Shown here piece after piece: positions 3-45,105 of a DNA stretch of 64,000 nt. Position numbers and translations under genes: made by a program. The first letter of the stretch is position 1. Every line of letters starts with the position of its first letter. This DNA comes from Ruficoccus sp. ZRK36 (lineage in GTDB: Bacteria; Verrucomicrobiota; Verrucomicrobiia; Opitutales; Cerasicoccaceae): contig NZ_CP080649.1 in the NCBI RefSeq assembly GCF_019603315.1, positions 1,131,501 to 1,195,500 on the forward strand, read 5' to 3'. The notes under the pieces are model-generated. The model made no database searches, had not been told where the DNA came from, and saw only the letters and a list, made by a program, of their open reading frames with translations.

Positions 3-1817
3 TACAAAAATAAGAGAATCGACAGCATTCGCTCGACCATGCTTATCCGGATTGGATTTTTCCATCCGGAGCCTGATGTCGCCGCGATGATTGCGAACTA
101 CTATGCGGATGAGTTCATCATGTATAGTGTGCGCCTGAATATCGACCTGTCGATGCGAGCGGTCGAAGACCTGCGCATGCGCGCTGACGAACAGCGCGCT
201 GAAGTGGACGCCATTCGCGAGAAACTGGTTGAGTACCGTGAGAAATCGAATCGTACCTCACTGGAGCCGGATGAAAACATCGAGGCTCAGGAGATGTTCC
301 AGCTCAACCAGCTTGTAACAGAAGCTAAGGCCCAGCTCGACACCCTTGAGAACCGCTGGCAGCTCGTTCAAGAGCATGTCGCCGAGGGGAAGCCGATGTG
401 GAACCTGCCCTTTATCTCCAATCGCCCGCGTATCGCTGACCTGTTGAGCCAGCTCAGTATGCAGGAGGTCGAGCTGTCCTCCATGCGCAAGCGCTACGGC
501 CCCAAGTGGCCCGATCTGGAGCAAGCGGTACGTGGCCATGAGCAGACCAAGCAGGAGCTGGATTCGGCCGTGCAGTCCGCTATTCAGGAGATCCGCGTCG
601 AGTACGTAGAGGGCAAAAACTCTTACGAGCAGGCCGAAAAGCGTCTGGCTGAAAAAGAAGCCGACATTAAGGAGCTGCAGCGCCTCGCGGTTGGGTACCA
701 ATCGCTGGAGCAAGACCTGGAGGTCAATGTTGGCGTGCTCTCTAACATCATCTTCCGCCTTGAGCAGGAGAAGAACAACATTTCACTGGTATTGCCCAGT
801 GCCCGTATTATCGAAAAGGCATTGCCCTCTCCCTATCCGGCCAAGCCCAATGTAGTGATGAATCTGCTCGTCGGGGCTTTTGGCGGGGTCTTCCTCGGTT
901 TGGGTATCGTCTTTGTCATCGCGTTCCTGGATGACCGTATCAAGTCCGCCTTCGATGTTGAGACTTCGGTCGGCTTGCCGCTGATCGGGATTGTCCCGCG
1001 TATCAAGCGTCTGAACTCGCTGGAAAAGGCGCGCGCTGTGGCCGCAAATGTGGACCGCCGCGTGACCGAGTCCTTCCGGGCTATCCACTCCGCTCTGAAG
1101 ATCAATGAAGCGAGCCGGAACGCCAAGGTCATCGTCTCAACCAGTACCTCACCCAGTGAGGGTAAGTCTTTCGTCACCACCAACCTGGCACTCACGTTTG
1201 CCATTCACGGTGAGAAGACCCTGATCGTTGACGGTGACTTGCGCATGCCGAATGTCGGCAAATCTCTTGAGATCGAGGAAGCCCACAAGGGGATCATCCA
1301 CTATTTCAACGAGGAAGTCTCCCTTAAGGAAGCCATCGTCGAGGAGCTCTATCCGAATCTCGACGTGCTCATGGCTGGCGGTAAGGCTAAAAACCCGACG
1401 CAGATCCTCAACAGCCCGCGCTATGAGGAGATGCTGCACGAGCTGCGCTCGCAGTACGACCGCATCATCATTGACTCGCCGCCTATCGGTGCTGTCAGTG
1501 ACGTGCTGACGATCCTCCCGCATGCGGACGGCATCATCTATGTCATCAAGTTTAATGCGGTGAAGCGCCGCACGGCCAAGGCCAACCTGCGCCGGATCAT
1601 CGAGTCGAATACACCGGTCTTTGGTGCGATTCTGAATCAGATCAGCGTCGCGGTAGCCAGCTACTACTACGCGAACTACTACGATAAGTCCTACCAGAGC
1701 TATTATCACACCGATGATGGCGAGGATGTCATGACCGAGACGAAGGAGCGCAAGACCAAGCCTCCCGTCGCTCCCGTCGGTGATCCCAATGACCCGACCC
1801 CTGGGGACAAGGCCTGA
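3..1817 (+). CDS. Chain-length determinant/BY-type tyrosine kinase, 5' truncated
   Basis: C-terminal part of a Wzc/CapAB-type protein that regulates export and chain length of capsule or exopolysaccharide in the inner membrane. The reading frame is open to the window edge, so the first ATG at 39 is not the true start and the N-terminal Wzz segment and first membrane helix lie outside. Numbering from that ATG: coiled coil about 35-250, PxxP-bearing membrane helix about 268-297, kinase domain from about 345 with Walker A (SPSEGKSFVTT), Walker A' (LIVDGDLRMP) and Walker B (IIIDSPP). The C-terminus has a tyrosine cluster (YYYANYY...YQSYY), the usual autophosphorylation site of BY-kinases. A strong terminator follows. 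Family assignment is firm; the exact polysaccharide is unknown. Confidence 0.93.
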   Translation, partial: YKNKRIDSIRSTMLIRIGFFHPEPDVAAMIANYYADEFIMYSVRLNIDLSMRAVEDLRMRADEQRAEVDAIREKLVEYREKSNRTSLEPDENIEAQEMFQLNQLVTEAKAQLDTLENRWQLVQEHVAEGKPMWNLPFISNRPRIADLLSQLSMQEVELSSMRKRYGPKWPDLEQAVRGHEQTKQELDSAVQSAIQEIRVEYVEGKNSYEQAEKRLAEKEADIKELQRLAVGYQSLEQDLEVNVGVLSNIIFRLEQEKNNISLVLPSARIIEKALPSPYPAKPNVVMNLLVGAFGGVFLGLGIVFVIAFLDDRIKSAFDVETSVGLPLIGIVPRIKRLNSLEKARAVAANVDRRVTESFRAIHSALKINEASRNAKVIVSTSTSPSEGKSFVTTNLALTFAIHGEKTLIVDGDLRMPNVGKSLEIEEAHKGIIHYFNEEVSLKEAIVEELYPNLDVLMAGGKAKNPTQILNSPRYEEMLHELRSQYDRIIIDSPPIGAVSDVLTILPHADGIIYVIKFNAVKRRTAKANLRRIIESNTPVFGAILNQISVAVASYYYANYYDKSYQSYYHTDDGEDVMTETKERKTKPPVAPVGDPNDPTPGDKA

Positions 1818-1845
1818 TCAGACAGTAGTCTTTACCTTTTAACAG

Positions 1846-1874
1846 CGGCGAAGCTTCGGCTTCGCCGTTTTTTT
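1846..1874 (+). terminator. Rho-independent terminator after the BY-kinase gene
   Basis: Perfect 9-bp stem (1846-1854 with 1859-1867) closed by a C(TTCG)G tetraloop and followed by seven T residues (1868-1874). It lies 29 bases after the kinase stop codon and points the same way. Confidence 0.93.
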
Positions 1875-1991
1875 GTCGATGGAGGACAAAGCTTCTTTTG
1901 CCCCAAAGAGTTTCTGGGCGATATGATCGAAGCTTTCGTCCGCACACGGCCGTTGCTTTACAGGCGCGTGTTGGAGCGGTGGGGCCGGTCT

Positions 1992-2984
1992 TTATCGGGC
2001 GGCAGCGCGAGTGAGCCTGTCGATGAGCGCCAGGCCGATGCCATTGGCGGGGGGGAGCTCGATATAAATGCGCGAGTGCTCGAGCGTGTCGAGTTTACGC
2101 AGCATGGCAAAAAGCGTGCGCGCGATGTCCTCGGGGTCGCCGGTTTCGCTGAACCAGTAACGATCGTAGCCGCTGGGGGAGCTTTCAGCCTGTTGGCGGG
2201 AGGTGGCGACCCATGCGCAGCGGCCTTCTGGAGCCTCTGGAGGCTGTTCACCGTGTGAAACTAGGCAGAGGGGAGTATTCGGGCTGTAATGGCGCGCTAA
2301 CAGGCCCGGAGCGGCTGGTTTGGCCGCATCCTGTGGTGTATGAGTGGAGATGGGGAGTCCATCCAGCGTGGCGGAAAGTGCATCGGGGGAGAGGGGGCCG
2401 GGACGTAGCAGGCGAACGGCGTCCGGTCGGGACACATCGACGATGGTGGACTCGATGCCGGCCTGACAGGGGCCACCGTCGACAATCCAGCTCAGGCGCT
2501 CTCCGAGGGAGTCCATCACGTGAGCGGCGCAGGTCGGGCTGATGTAGCCAAAAGGGTTCGCGCTAGGCGCTGCGAGGGGGACGTCTGCGGCCTGCAGGAT
2601 GCGACGGGCCAGCGGGTGGGCCGGCATGCGTACGGCGACGGTCGGGTTACCCGCCGTGACCAAGTCGCTGACACAGTCAGCCTTGGGTAAAATCAGAGTC
2701 AGGGGGCCGGGCCAGAAGGCTTCAGCCAGCTTCCGGGCATGCGGTGGAATCTCCGCTGTGATGCTCTCAACCTGCTTCCATTCATGGACATGCAGAATGA
2801 GGGGGTCAATAAGAGGGCGTCCCTTGACGGTAAAAATCTGGCGGACGGTATCCTCCAGTAGGGCATTCCCGGCCAGACCATAGACAGTCTCGGTGGGGAG
2901 TGCTATAAGTTGACCCTCACGCAGGAGGGTTCCGGCCATGCGGACATCTCCGTCCGAGTCACCCAGTATGGTTGCGGACGGCAT
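1992..2984 (-). CDS. L-threonylcarbamoyladenylate synthase (Sua5/YrdC family)
   Basis: Makes threonylcarbamoyl-AMP from threonine, bicarbonate and ATP for the t6A37 modification of ANN-decoding tRNAs. At 330 aa it is the long Sua5 form: an YrdC domain at about 10-205 with the opening LPTETVYGLAG, the KGRP motif, the PGPLTLIL segment and SAN/ST-x-VD residues, then a linker and a Sua5 C-terminal domain (about 235-325). The ATG start overlaps nothing and lies 29 bases after rpsR on the same strand, so the two are probably cotranscribed. The family call is secure; the fold is split as in other Sua5 proteins, with no sign of damage. Confidence 0.93.
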   Translation of the reverse strand: MPSATILGDSDGDVRMAGTLLREGQLIALPTETVYGLAGNALLEDTVRQIFTVKGRPLIDPLILHVHEWKQVESITAEIPPHARKLAEAFWPGPLTLILPKADCVSDLVTAGNPTVAVRMPAHPLARRILQAADVPLAAPSANPFGYISPTCAAHVMDSLGERLSWIVDGGPCQAGIESTIVDVSRPDAVRLLRPGPLSPDALSATLDGLPISTHTPQDAAKPAAPGLLARHYSPNTPLCLVSHGEQPPEAPEGRCAWVATSRQQAESSPSGYDRYWFSETGDPEDIARTLFAMLRKLDTLEHSRIYIELPPANGIGLALIDRLTRAAAR

Positions 2985-26953: not shown

Positions 26954-27331
26954 ATGACATCTTCTCTCTCCACTGAATTACCTGCGGGCGTGCGCGTGGG
27001 CGACGAGCGCCTTGTTCGTCTCACCGAGCCTGCCGGCGAAAAACTTGCCAGCCTCATCGCACGCGAGAACAAGGGCGAGTACCTGCGCATGGCGATCACG
27101 GGCGGCGGCTGCAACGGCCTGTCCTACAAGCTCAAGTTTGTCCCGGCCCCGAAAAAGGGCGACATCCTCGTGCAGTCGGCAGGGGCCCAGGTCGTGGTGG
27201 ACTCCAAAAGCGCCCTCTACCTCAAGGGCACGACCCTCGACTATTCGGACAAGATGGTCGGCGGCGGCTTCAAGTTCTCCAACCCCAACGCCTCCTCCAG
27301 CTGCTCCTGCGGCGAAAGCTTTTCGGTCTAG
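26954..27331 (+). CDS. A-type iron-sulfur carrier (IscA/ErpA/SufA family)
   Basis: 125 aa, HesB-like domain. The three conserved cysteines are present: GGGCNGLSY, and the C-terminal SCSCGESF. It accepts and hands on Fe-S clusters. Together with SufT (13436) it is the second cluster-assembly factor in the window. Which of IscA, SufA or ErpA it corresponds to cannot be decided here. Confidence 0.93.
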   Translation: MTSSLSTELPAGVRVGDERLVRLTEPAGEKLASLIARENKGEYLRMAITGGGCNGLSYKLKFVPAPKKGDILVQSAGAQVVVDSKSALYLKGTTLDYSDKMVGGGFKFSNPNASSSCSCGESFSV

Positions 27332-27387
27332 CGGATTTTTGTTGGAGGCATTGCGTCGGGATTCACCGAGGCCCGCGCCCTAAGCCC

Positions 27388-27570
27388 TGTCCGTGGGTGA
27401 ACGACTTGCCGCGCCATTCGTTTATCTCCTATCGGCTGGCCACCATCCACGACGAAAACAAGGTTGCCCGCGAGGCCGGAAACTCACCCGACATCATTTT
27501 TAGCAACTATCACGAAACGACCACCGGGCATGCAGCGAAGCTGTATTTTGGGATCGGGCCCTACTCTTAA
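27388..27570 (+). pseudogene. Decayed tyrosine-recombinase (integrase) C-terminal fragment
   Basis: An open stretch without a start codon whose translation ends in LPRHSFISYRLA, then VAREAGNSPDIIFSNYHETT and AAKLYFGI: the RHS box and the GNSPxxIFxxY end with the probable catalytic Tyr of tyrosine integrases of the same family as the intact one at 29929. Everything upstream of about residue -60 is missing, replaced by the end of the A-type carrier region. It marks the left edge of an older insertion; the rest of that element is probably the AvcD region to its right. Confidence 0.75.
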
Positions 27571-27667
27571 TGACATCCATAGCGCCTTAACACTCGCTTT
27601 CACGTACTAAAAATACTGAGTACACCGTCATTGGCTTACGAATGGCAGTATCATCAGTTTCTGTCGT

Positions 27668-27880
27668 TTACATTTCCTCGAGATCCTCGTCAGCAAGTAG
27701 CCTGCGCATACGTTCTCTTTCTTGCTCTAAGAGAATCTTTCTTTGTTCGCTAAAAAAGTTTAATACTTTTTCTTGCTCGTCACTGTGTTGACGCTGTGCA
27801 CGCAAGTGCTCTTGCTCTCTCGGGGGAGCAAAAAGCTGCAAATCCATCTGAACCGGACCCATATTTTTTTTGTTATCCAT
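27668..27880 (-). CDS. Small coiled-coil protein downstream of the deaminase
   Basis: 70 aa, mostly charged helix (LRAQRQHSDEQEKVLNFFSEQ region), no known motif. It lies 41 bases after the deaminase stop on the same strand. No clear ribosome binding site, so it may be read through from the gene before it or be spurious. Confidence 0.4.
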   Translation of the reverse strand: MDNKKNMGPVQMDLQLFAPPREQEHLRAQRQHSDEQEKVLNFFSEQRKILLEQERERMRRLLADEDLEEM

Positions 27881-27921
27881 TGGTAGCTAATGCGTTGCAA
27901 TTCTCGACGCTATACGCTCCA

Positions 27922-28956
27922 TTACTTTTGAATTTTGGAATCGTAGACCTTTGCCACCTCTCTCTCAAGCTCAAATAAAGCAGCTAGAGAGATTCCCTGA
28001 GGAAGTCGAGCTGTGGTGGTGTCGGATGGGGTTGCGTTACCATCTGATTTTAAGACACGACCTTGCGTGGAAAATATTTCAGAGAATCTCGTCGGGGCGA
28101 TTCCCTCGAAAGGGATCAATTTTACCTTATTTGCTTCGTTCCTTTCAGTCAAACTGTCGTCATGGAGCTTGGTTGCTTTGGATTTTGGATATGGTTCTAT
28201 GAAGTATATTCTCTCGATCCCTGATAATATTATATGCCTAGCACAGTTATGGCAGGGGTATGTTGTGACGTAGATGCTTGCACCTTTAACGCGTGATGAA
28301 GCACTACCAAGTGCATTGAAAATTGCATTCATTTCCGCGTGTATCGCTCTGGAGAACTCGATTAGATCGGACAATCTTGATTTGTTTCTAAGGTAATCGT
28401 AGGCGTCTCTTTCATGCTTCTTGTCAATGATTCCAATGTCAACAAGCTCAGACACCATTTGCTCGGATATGACGTCTTTTTCATTGTCGTTCCTGCAATC
28501 CTTTGTTTCGGAGGTTCTATATTTATAACAACGTTTGTCTCCATTATTGTTTTCCGAACAATATATCCCACCGCCATACTTAGGAACGTCATTCCATCCT
28601 GTTCCTATAATTATTCCATTGTTATCTACAATTGAAGCTCCCACTTGCCGAGATAGGCAAGCGCTGTTTAGTCCTGCCGACCAAGCAGAAAACATTGCCC
28701 TCTCCGATATGTCGGGCGTAATTGTCTTTGTGCCAAATATGGCATCAAAAAACCTCTTGATGCGTAGGTTTGAGTTGGTGTTTGTGCTTACATCGATAAA
28801 AAAGTCTGAAAGCGGGAATAACCCCCGTACGTCTTGTCCATGGTCGTCGATGTCACGGAAATCACGATCAATTAATGATTCGGCATTTGAACGCGTATCT
28901 CCTCTGCTGGTAAGCGCTTTTATACGACTTTCTCGATCAGAATATACCCCGATCAT
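27922..28956 (-). CDS. AvcD-like anti-phage dCTP/dCMP deaminase, C-terminal part
   Basis: 344 aa from the first ATG after the amber codon (29047). Cytidine-deaminase zinc site: HAE in RAIHAEMNAIFNA and PCxxC in TYPCHNCARHI, as in deoxycytidylate deaminases. The reading frame upstream is open through RVCYIIDSLKN and FYMIGVYS, a bridge conserved in AvcD proteins, so the ATG here is an artefact of the TAG and not a real start. In AvcID systems, AvcD depletes dCTP during phage infection and is held by the AvcI RNA. The gene is visibly A+T rich against the host background and lies outside the tRNA-Arg element. If read through, the full product has about 510 residues. Confidence 0.85.
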   Translation of the reverse strand: MIGVYSDRESRIKALTSRGDTRSNAESLIDRDFRDIDDHGQDVRGLFPLSDFFIDVSTNTNSNLRIKRFFDAIFGTKTITPDISERAMFSAWSAGLNSACLSRQVGASIVDNNGIIIGTGWNDVPKYGGGIYCSENNNGDKRCYKYRTSETKDCRNDNEKDVISEQMVSELVDIGIIDKKHERDAYDYLRNKSRLSDLIEFSRAIHAEMNAIFNALGSASSRVKGASIYVTTYPCHNCARHIILSGIERIYFIEPYPKSKATKLHDDSLTERNEANKVKLIPFEGIAPTRFSEIFSTQGRVLKSDGNATPSDTTTARLPQGISLAALFELEREVAKVYDSKIQK

Positions 28957-29046
28957 ATAAAAAAGCTTCGTATATACTTTTTTAAAAATATGACGCTCAT
29001 ATTTGTTTTTTAGAGAGTCAATTATATAGCAAACTCTCTTTGGTTG

Positions 29047-29049
29047 CTA
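29047..29049 (-). other. In-frame amber stop inside the AvcD-like gene
   Basis: TAG follows ...RKKIGE and precedes QPKRVCYIID in the same frame. CAG or AAG one base away would restore a sense codon. It could be a nonsense mutation, suppressed in the host, or a sequencing error. Confidence 0.85.
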
Positions 29050-29454
29050 TTCTCCGATTTTCTTTCGATGTTCGTATATATTGCTTATAATATGTTCGGC
29101 GAGAAATTCTTTATTGTGTTTTTCTCTAAGGGCATTTCCAGTGTTTATAAGCTTGCTTTTTCTCGCAGAGATGGAGCCGCTTTTAAATTCTGGATTATGT
29201 TGAGGGGCGGGGTCAAGAGTGTCGGAGAGTATTTCAATTACATTACTTACTTTGTATGTCTTGACCTGATATCCCCTCGATTCCATTTCGATTTTAATAG
29301 CTTCAGATACGTCTTTGATTGGGGCTCCAATTGGTCCACAAAGGCCTAACACGATCTCATTCGTAATAGTCGATTCGACGAACTCGAGAGAGTTTGTTGC
29401 CGATGTGCTTCCTGTCTCGACTTGCGATTTCGTTTGCCTTGCTGTGTCTGCCAT
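29047..29454 (-). CDS. AvcD-like N-terminal P-loop-type domain, cut by an amber codon
   Basis: 135 aa from MADTAR at 29454 (ATG 29526 is the longer alternative). After a polar leader comes VLGLCGPIGAPIKDV, the deoxynucleoside-kinase-like N-terminal domain of AvcD, whose P-loop lacks the usual GKS/T, as is common in that family. It ends at TAG 29047-29049. The next codons in the same frame continue the protein without any gap, so this and the deaminase part are one gene: 29454 down to 27922. No frameshift is needed, only a single-codon change. Confidence 0.85.
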   Translation of the reverse strand: MADTARQTKSQVETGSTSATNSLEFVESTITNEIVLGLCGPIGAPIKDVSEAIKIEMESRGYQVKTYKVSNVIEILSDTLDPAPQHNPEFKSGSISARKSKLINTGNALREKHNKEFLAEHIISNIYEHRKKIGE

Positions 29455-29779
29455 TATTCCAATGTTTTGGTGTTTGAGGTACATTAAATTATGTGACATC
29501 TCTTTAGTTTTACAATGAAATATCAATATAATTTAATTGTTCCACTGCGATGCGGCTACTTCTTGATGTTGGCAAAAAGGGTGCATGTCATGCCTCAATT
29601 TAGCACAGCATTTAAGCGCCTGCGCTATGCGTGCTAGAGCCTTGCAAAATCTACTTTATGTCACGTCGAAGGCTATTTCCCCGTTTTTTCCCAAATTGGG
29701 GTCTTTAAGGCCCTTTTTTGCCTTTTTGAGTCGCAACTGGATTTGTGGCTCTAGTCGTTGTTTGACAACGATTTAAAAA

Positions 29780-29823
29780 TGGTGCCCCCACCGAGACTCG
29801 AACTCGGATTAACGGTTTAGGAA
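29780..29823 (-). repeat. attL: displaced 3' end of tRNA-Arg
   Basis: 44 bases identical to 45031-45074. It reads as the tRNA CCA end, acceptor, T-arm and into the anticodon side, then diverges at 29824. It is a tRNA fragment left by site-specific integration and is not functional as a tRNA. Confidence 0.92.
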
Positions 29824-29860
29824 GCCTCGAATTGTAGCCTATTTTCAATGACTTAAGAAA

Positions 29861-29886
29861 CTGGGGCTCTATTGGGGCTCTATTTT
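29861..29886 (+). repeat. 26-base repeat near the left end, copy 1 of 2
   Basis: Identical to 44903-44928 in the same orientation, and itself built of two tandem 11-base units (GGGGCTCTATT twice). It lies 37 bases inside attL, immediately upstream of the integrase start codon. Likely an integrase or excisionase arm-type site and possibly also a promoter operator. Confidence 0.75.
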
Positions 29887-29928
29887 GACTTTACTTTTCC
29901 CTCCTATGGCGGCTTAAGTGCCGTTAAC

Positions 29929-31245
29929 ATGGAAGACTACCGCAGGCGTCCACGGAAACGGGCAACAGGTGCACCGGGAGAACCCGTACTCCAATCGTAC
30001 AATGAAAAAGCCCGCCCTGATCTAAAGTGGCGGGTGAAGTACAAGCAGGAAGGCGCGTGGAAAGTTCGGAAATTTAAGCTGAAGAAAGAGGCCCAGCGCT
30101 TCCACAATGAAAAGGTGGCCGAATTTCGGAACCTCGGTGTGGAAATGGCCAATGCTCTTTCGGAGGAGTTAAAGCGCGAGGCGCTGGACGCTCAGGAAGT
30201 GCTCGGAGGACTTTCCCTTGTCGAAGCTGCAAAACACTACCGTGCGTACGTTCAGCGGACTTCTAGCGGGGAAAAGGTAACCAACCTCGTGCAAGCCTTC
30301 CTGCGTCACCTTAGAGATGATCGAGGAGTGGGCCCCCGACACCTCAATGACGTCGCCGGGAGGCTGGGGCGCTTCGCTGAGGATTTTGGCCAGCACCACC
30401 CTGCCGCCATCAGTCCCACCGAAGTTGCGGACTGGTTGGGAACCTTAAAGGCCAGCATTAAGCCGAAAGGCGCAACCGAGCGTGAAGTGTTGGAGGTGGA
30501 TTTGTCCGTGCAGAGTCGCCGACACTATCGCGCTGCGCTGCATAACTTCTTTGCGTGGTGTGTTGATAACGACCACTGTGCCTCTATTCCCGTGCGTGGC
30601 AGGCCACCTCGTGTACGCGAAGCACAGTCGCTGGCAATCTGGACGCCAACTGAGCTGGCGCGAGTTATTCAAATACTTTTCGACTGGAGCCCTGACCAAA
30701 CGAAGAGTAAGGAAGGTAAGCGCACTGGCAATTACCCGACCAAGGTGCCCGAGAAAATGGATATCCTTGCTAACATTGTGATTTGTGCCTTTGGTGGGCT
30801 ACGGCAAAGCGAGTTCGAGCGCTTGCACTGGGAGCATATCCACCTCGCGCACGACATTATCGACCTGTCGGATATCACGACCAAGAACACGCCGAGTAAC
30901 CGCCATGTTACGATCCGTCCTACGTTGCGTGCATGGCTGGAGGTTTTCTTCGCCTTTGAGTCCGGCCCGTGCATCAAGCCGAACTTTCCGAATCGGCTAG
31001 CAGCGTTTCGACAACACCTGCGCGACAAGGGCATGGAGTGGAAGCAAAACGTGCTGCGCCACTCTTTCGCCAGTTATCTCATGGGCGAGCTACAGGACGC
31101 CGCGAAGGTCGCAGCCCAAATGGGCCACGTTGGTCAAGGTACTTTATACAAGCACTACTCCAAGCCCGTCTACCGCGATCACGCGACCGCCTACTGGAGC
31201 CTGACCCCCGATAGTCTAACTCTTAAAGCGGTGGATGCTATATGA
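29929..31245 (+). CDS. Tyrosine-type site-specific integrase
   Basis: 438 aa from ATG 29929 (an in-frame TTG at 29872 would lie in the repeat and is less likely). N-terminal arm-binding part (1-80, basic: RRRPRKRATG), core-binding SAM-like domain (about 100-205), catalytic domain with Arg I in GGLRQSEFERL, the NVLRHSFASYL box (Arg II) and GHVGQGTLYKHYSK with the nucleophile Tyr. It catalyses integration at tRNA-Arg. Located 100 bases inside attL. Its stop overlaps the start of the next gene. Confidence 0.93.
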   Translation: MEDYRRRPRKRATGAPGEPVLQSYNEKARPDLKWRVKYKQEGAWKVRKFKLKKEAQRFHNEKVAEFRNLGVEMANALSEELKREALDAQEVLGGLSLVEAAKHYRAYVQRTSSGEKVTNLVQAFLRHLRDDRGVGPRHLNDVAGRLGRFAEDFGQHHPAAISPTEVADWLGTLKASIKPKGATEREVLEVDLSVQSRRHYRAALHNFFAWCVDNDHCASIPVRGRPPRVREAQSLAIWTPTELARVIQILFDWSPDQTKSKEGKRTGNYPTKVPEKMDILANIVICAFGGLRQSEFERLHWEHIHLAHDIIDLSDITTKNTPSNRHVTIRPTLRAWLEVFFAFESGPCIKPNFPNRLAAFRQHLRDKGMEWKQNVLRHSFASYLMGELQDAAKVAAQMGHVGQGTLYKHYSKPVYRDHATAYWSLTPDSLTLKAVDAI

Positions 31246-45030: not shown

Positions 45031-45074
45031 TGGTGCCCCCACCGAGACTCGAACTCGGATTAACGGTTTAGGAA
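45031..45074 (-). repeat. attR: 44-base direct repeat shared with attL
   Basis: The right copy is the 3' part of the intact tRNA-Arg gene (CCA end, acceptor, T-arm and into the anticodon loop). Direct-repeat identity with 29780-29823 is complete across 44 bases and ends at 45075. Confidence 0.92.
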
Positions 45075-45105
45075 ACCGCGGTTCTATCCATTGAACTATG
45101 GGGAC
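45031..45105 (-). tRNA. tRNA-Arg (anticodon CCT)
   Basis: 75 nt with encoded CCA. Acceptor GTCCCCA pairs with TGGGGGC, D-stem GTTC/GAAC, anticodon stem GCGGT/ACCGT with loop TTCCTAA (anticodon CCT, reads AGG), T-arm CCGAG/CTCGG around TTCGAGT. It serves as the integration site of the element to its left; integration kept the gene complete. Confidence 0.95.

Follow-up and report, generated by a model that had tools for sequence, protein, structure and literature searches.

The interrupted gene and its surroundings

The window we analysed is a stretch of 64,000 nucleotides from the genome of Ruficoccus sp. ZRK36. On its minus strand, positions 29526 to 27922 form one frame of 535 codons, which ends in TAA and contains a single internal stop, the TAG at 29047–29049. 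A preliminary description of this DNA had seen here an AvcD-like anti-phage deaminase, whose P-loop-like N-terminal part and deaminase part lie in one frame and are split by the TAG alone. Our searches agree on both points. When the TAG is read as any residue, the read-through protein matches the NF041025 profile (anti-phage dCTP deaminase) with 457 bits at positions 1–434 of 437, where the curated cut-off is 400 bits, and the PADLOC dCTPase model with 516 bits. Taken alone, the part after the stop reaches 392 bits against NF041025, just under the cut-off, and the part before the stop 52 bits. An independent profile search of the whole genome again placed one TAG within the NF041025 match, and there was none within the matches of the other carriers. 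Judged by its sequence, the interrupted gene is an AvcD/DcdV-like anti-phage dCTP deaminase of the NF041025 family.

The gene probably does not begin at the TTG at 29526, the start given in the preliminary description. The ATG at 29454 is the more plausible start, because the first approximately 41 residues of the longer frame are unconserved and are modelled with low confidence. We therefore place the gene at 27922–29454 on the minus strand, as the profile, the PADLOC model, and the alignment indicate. The piece before the stop (29050–29454) covers about half of the P-loop/kinase-like domain, up to helix 141–160 of the structural model. This domain is recognizable by fold search and by alignment, and its Walker A motif is degenerate: the P-loop-like segment GLCGPIGAPIKD (29311–29346) has no canonical GKS or GKT. 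Just after the stop comes VCYIIDSLKN (29005–29034), which corresponds to a Walker-B-like central strand (model strand 165–170). Further along lie the two zinc-site motifs, HAEM (28330–28341, invariant from H396 to M399) and PCHNC (28243–28257), so that the HAE and PCxxC motifs of zinc deaminases are retained with H396, E398, P424, C425, and C428, all of them invariant.

With 40.8% G+C, compared to about 59% in the host flanks, the gene has a composition consistent with acquisition from elsewhere. Its nearest homologue (L100 in genome G232) is 45% identical over the full length, but differs in having an uninterrupted frame and in lying at another genomic site. Directly downstream of the deaminase, a charged-residue-rich ORF of 70 amino acids (27668–27880, minus strand) has no relative in the fetched loci and no Pfam match.

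The neighbourhood is shaped by integration. A tRNA-Arg(CCT) gene at 45031–45105 (minus strand) serves as the integration site of a 15.25-kb element, which spans 29780 to about 45080–45105 according to its repeats. At the other end of the element there is a 50-nt att copy (29780–29829, minus strand), 96% identical to the 3′ end of the tRNA gene, followed by the integrase of the element (29872–31245, plus strand; PF00589). The cargo includes, besides this integrase, a primase-like protein, a type I restriction-modification system, a TIR protein, an Abi_C/AbiJ-like protein, an Mrr-like restriction enzyme, and UzuA. The deaminase gene lies just outside the element, in the stretch that separates the att copy from hesB. 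It adjoins the C-terminal remnant of a tyrosine integrase (27376–27567, plus strand), which has no Pfam match but is 29% identical to residues 384–448 of the integrase at 29872–31245 (E = 2e-6). The interval between hesB and tRNA-Arg(CCT) measures 17.7 kb here, about 8.5 kb in congener G001, and about 1.6 kb in congener G002; the contents in the two congeners (loci L169 and L170) are non-homologous to those here (window positions 27331–29780). Since the same interval holds differing contents, we regard it as an integration hotspot and the deaminase gene as part of an older, decayed remnant.

Known AvcD proteins are held in check by an RNA antitoxin, AvcI. The 145 nt upstream of the deaminase fold somewhat better than shuffled sequence (z = −3.1). 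They have no Rfam match, and a comparison with the corresponding stretches of 70 homologues, in which an AvcI-like RNA could be expected, showed no sequence similarity. Just upstream of the ATG at 29454 lies a long imperfect AU-rich hairpin (29475–29541, minus strand; z about −3), which may act as a leader or as an antitoxin RNA. In seven other loci (L105, L106, L107, L108, L109, L187, and L237), small ORFs of about 55–80 amino acids precede the deaminase, stop shortly before or within its start, and share similar end peptides (AASKITW, AASKLDW, SAQKLTW, SASKINW). Such ORFs could specify a small partner protein, or they could fall within the AvcI region. No small upstream ORF with such an end peptide is present at the deaminase gene of the window.

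The stop in the context of the protein family

To see what the stop does to the protein we aligned it first to 12 and then to 50 further homologues (51 sequences with the window protein). The preliminary description had asked which residue the TAG replaces in relatives; among the 50 homologues, the column holds 14 different residue types or a gap. The position belongs to a linker that varies in both length and sequence. The same description held the 30 codons after the TAG to be conserved in AvcD. This is true from the fifth residue after the stop, where conservation resumes with the strand VCYIID, but not for the codons before it, which belong to the unconserved linker.

The AlphaFold2 model of the read-through protein (mean pLDDT 85.8, pTM 0.85) places the TAG at the last residue of helix 141–160, five residues ahead of the central strand 165–170. 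In fold comparisons the C-terminal part resembles dCMP deaminases and the N-terminal part adenylate/UMP-CMP kinase-like proteins. Because the stop precedes the central strand, termination would leave half a kinase-like domain. The only nearby in-frame restart codon is the ATG at 28956, 31 codons after the TAG. It opens the longest ATG-started ORF after the stop (27922–28956, 344 amino acids), which contains the deaminase domain but no complete N-terminal one. The codon lies within the core strand 189–195; hence, a restart product would also lack a whole N-terminal domain.

Apart from the TAG, the gene appears undamaged. The 51-sequence alignment has 39 invariant columns, 38 of them beyond the stop, and the window protein retains every one. 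It also agrees with the family at each of the 46 strongly conserved columns in the post-stop part. The earlier observation that all deaminase residues are intact is thereby borne out. We saw no extra stops, frameshifts, or lost conserved residues in the gene. The post-stop part offers 137 effective sites at which a change would either introduce a further stop or replace an invariant residue, and none of them is hit. If the post-stop part evolved neutrally, then fewer than about 0.022 neutral substitutions per site have accumulated since the stop arose, at the 95% level. Without a second lesion, the gene, if it is a pseudogene, is therefore young. The lesion is thus recent, absent (a sequencing error), or tolerated (read-through); an undecayed remainder is also what one expects of a functional gene that is read through.

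Elsewhere in the phylum we found nine carriers whose frame is open over its full length, and one truncated carrier. No in-frame stop occurs in any of them, and hence the stop is private to the Ruficoccus sp. ZRK36 genome. Neither the approximately 60 loci from viral contigs, 55 of which are intact and four of which carry a one-base frameshift, nor the alignable homologues have a stop at the position of the TAG. Our attempts to widen this comparison gave little: a DNA-pattern search of viral contigs returned no further record of the locus, a scan of genome contigs with a single deaminase protein found unrelated deaminases only, and E. coli genomes hold too few copies of the family for a base rate of pseudogenes.

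Other members of the family are damaged too. In one homologue from the same order (L103 in genome G169; 1339–2076, minus strand) the gene is truncated after about 150 positions of the NF041025 profile and runs into unrelated sequence. In each of the four viral-contig homologues with frameshifts (L194, L206, L215, and L234), the frame looks to be disrupted by the gain or loss of one base at or next to a short homopolymer run; chance, sequencing error, and slippage or phase variation are all conceivable causes. The four frameshifts, one truncation, and the TAG of the window fall into about the same N-terminal zone (profile positions 108–172 of 505, approximately). We considered whether this cluster marks a programmed site and rejected the idea: it was noticed post hoc, the frameshifts lie at or next to short homopolymer runs, and runs of at least six are only mildly enriched in the zone (8.9 per 1000 residues, compared to 3.4–6.3 in four of the five bins outside 100–240). 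We put the cluster down to chance, slippage, or sequencing error.

Explanations for the internal stop

Inactivation, read-through, and sequencing error had all been proposed for this gene, and recent inactivation is the best supported of the three. We consider it likely that the window contains a recent nonsense allele of a horizontally acquired deaminase, either a pseudogene of recent origin or an inactive allele that segregates in the species. The gene is probably a young pseudogene, younger than about 2% neutral divergence. In this scenario, an anti-phage dCTP/dCMP deaminase gene would have been acquired horizontally and recently hit by a nonsense substitution. Translation would stop roughly midway through the N-terminal kinase-like domain, and no working enzyme would be expected, save for a trace from basal mistranslation. 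The silenced allele would now sit in what decay has left of an integrative element at the tRNA-Arg hotspot. We infer both the loss of function and the recency of the stop, as well as the cause of the loss, either drift or an advantage in shedding a costly toxic gene.

The main alternative is an error in sequencing or assembly, in which case the real gene would be an ordinary intact dCTP deaminase without a stop. We think this is unlikely. It would account for a gene in which all but one codon is intact, and the viral contigs hold no second record of the locus that would speak to the base in question. However, the assembly is nearly closed (two contigs, 98.6% complete). Isolated substitution errors are also rarer than homopolymer indels, and the TAG site is no homopolymer. 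Furthermore, damaged copies of the family do exist elsewhere, at a few per cent.

One could also argue that the amber codon is read through in a programmed or regulated manner: TAG would be decoded at low efficiency, any residue would be inserted, and a toxic deaminase would be kept low. Several observations would fit. The linker is tolerant, with its 14 residue types among homologues, so that any inserted residue would probably work, and the downstream frame is wholly intact. Cases of bacterial in-frame stops where dN/dS is below 1 have been reported as well (PMC7918605). Nevertheless, no examined homologue has a stop at this position. A suppressor tRNA, one of the checks suggested earlier, did not turn up: none of the 45 tRNA matches in the genome (ARAGORN, Rfam) has a CTA anticodon, in a set that lacks Ile-GAT and Ala-TGC. 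The genome has no match to the PYLIS_1 element, and release factor RF1 (prfA) is present (471 bits). Judged from sequence, the genome uses TAG as an ordinary stop. It ends 16 of the 49 ORFs taken as gene proxies in the window, about one third, and pdxA and hesB end with TAG here at the same end residue as in congeners that use TAG or TGA.

The codons following the TAG are CAA CCA and happen to match UAG-CARYYA, a read-through context; it belongs to eukaryotic viruses and ribosomes, however, and is no bacterial signal. A hairpin starting 7 nt after the TAG likewise seems suggestive when compared to dinucleotide shuffles (z = −3.6). Against synonymous-codon shuffles its z-score is only −2.3, and 10 of 129 windows along the gene are stronger, which makes it the 11th of 130. 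We therefore rejected the hairpin as an exceptional stimulatory RNA element. Programmed read-through is thus unsupported: our tests gave no positive evidence for it, though they do not prove its absence, and we hold it to be very unlikely. Still more far-fetched is the specific version in which the amber codon is a regulatory element that permits traces of toxic enzyme, perhaps more when RF1 becomes limiting during phage infection.

It is equally far-fetched that the gene is split, with two pieces made separately through re-initiation and working together or apart: the 344-amino-acid downstream ORF does contain the whole zinc site, but its ATG at 28956 lies inside strand 189–195 with no clear Shine-Dalgarno sequence ahead of it, the central strand 165–170 would be in neither product, and no examined homologue consists of two clean genes at the point of the TAG, the four two-ORF cases being one-base frameshifts.

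Recent inactivation hence remains our preferred reading. On this reading, a point mutation removed or silenced a defence gene while a fresh, defence-rich element entered the neighbourhood at the tRNA hotspot, which fits a rapid turnover of phage defences. If read-through were true after all, then the gene would illustrate a translational means of restraining a toxic phage-defence enzyme.

Comparison with known systems

The closest characterized relatives are the AvcD/DcdV proteins of the AvcID systems in Vibrio and E. coli (PMC10511110, PMC9455884). The window gene belongs to the same NCBIfam family, NF041025, and shares their two-domain architecture of a P-loop/kinase-like domain and an HAE/PCxxC zinc deaminase. 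Intact family members deplete dC nucleotides during phage infection. AvcD deaminates dCTP and dCMP upon infection by phage, when transcription is halted and AvcI, a labile RNA antitoxin, decays (PMC10511110), and its over-production without AvcI is toxic (PMC9455884). Unlike these systems, the window gene is interrupted by a TAG, and its upstream region matches none of the homologue upstream regions in which an AvcI-like RNA would be expected, so that an antitoxin is unproven here.

A second comparison concerns the stop itself. In-frame stops turn up widely in bacterial genes, usually do not persist for long, and are over-represented among genes of the mobilome (Belinky et al. 2021, PMC7918605). 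The deaminase gene resembles these alleles in being a mobilome gene with a single stop that is otherwise intact. It differs from them in that one genome alone carries the stop.
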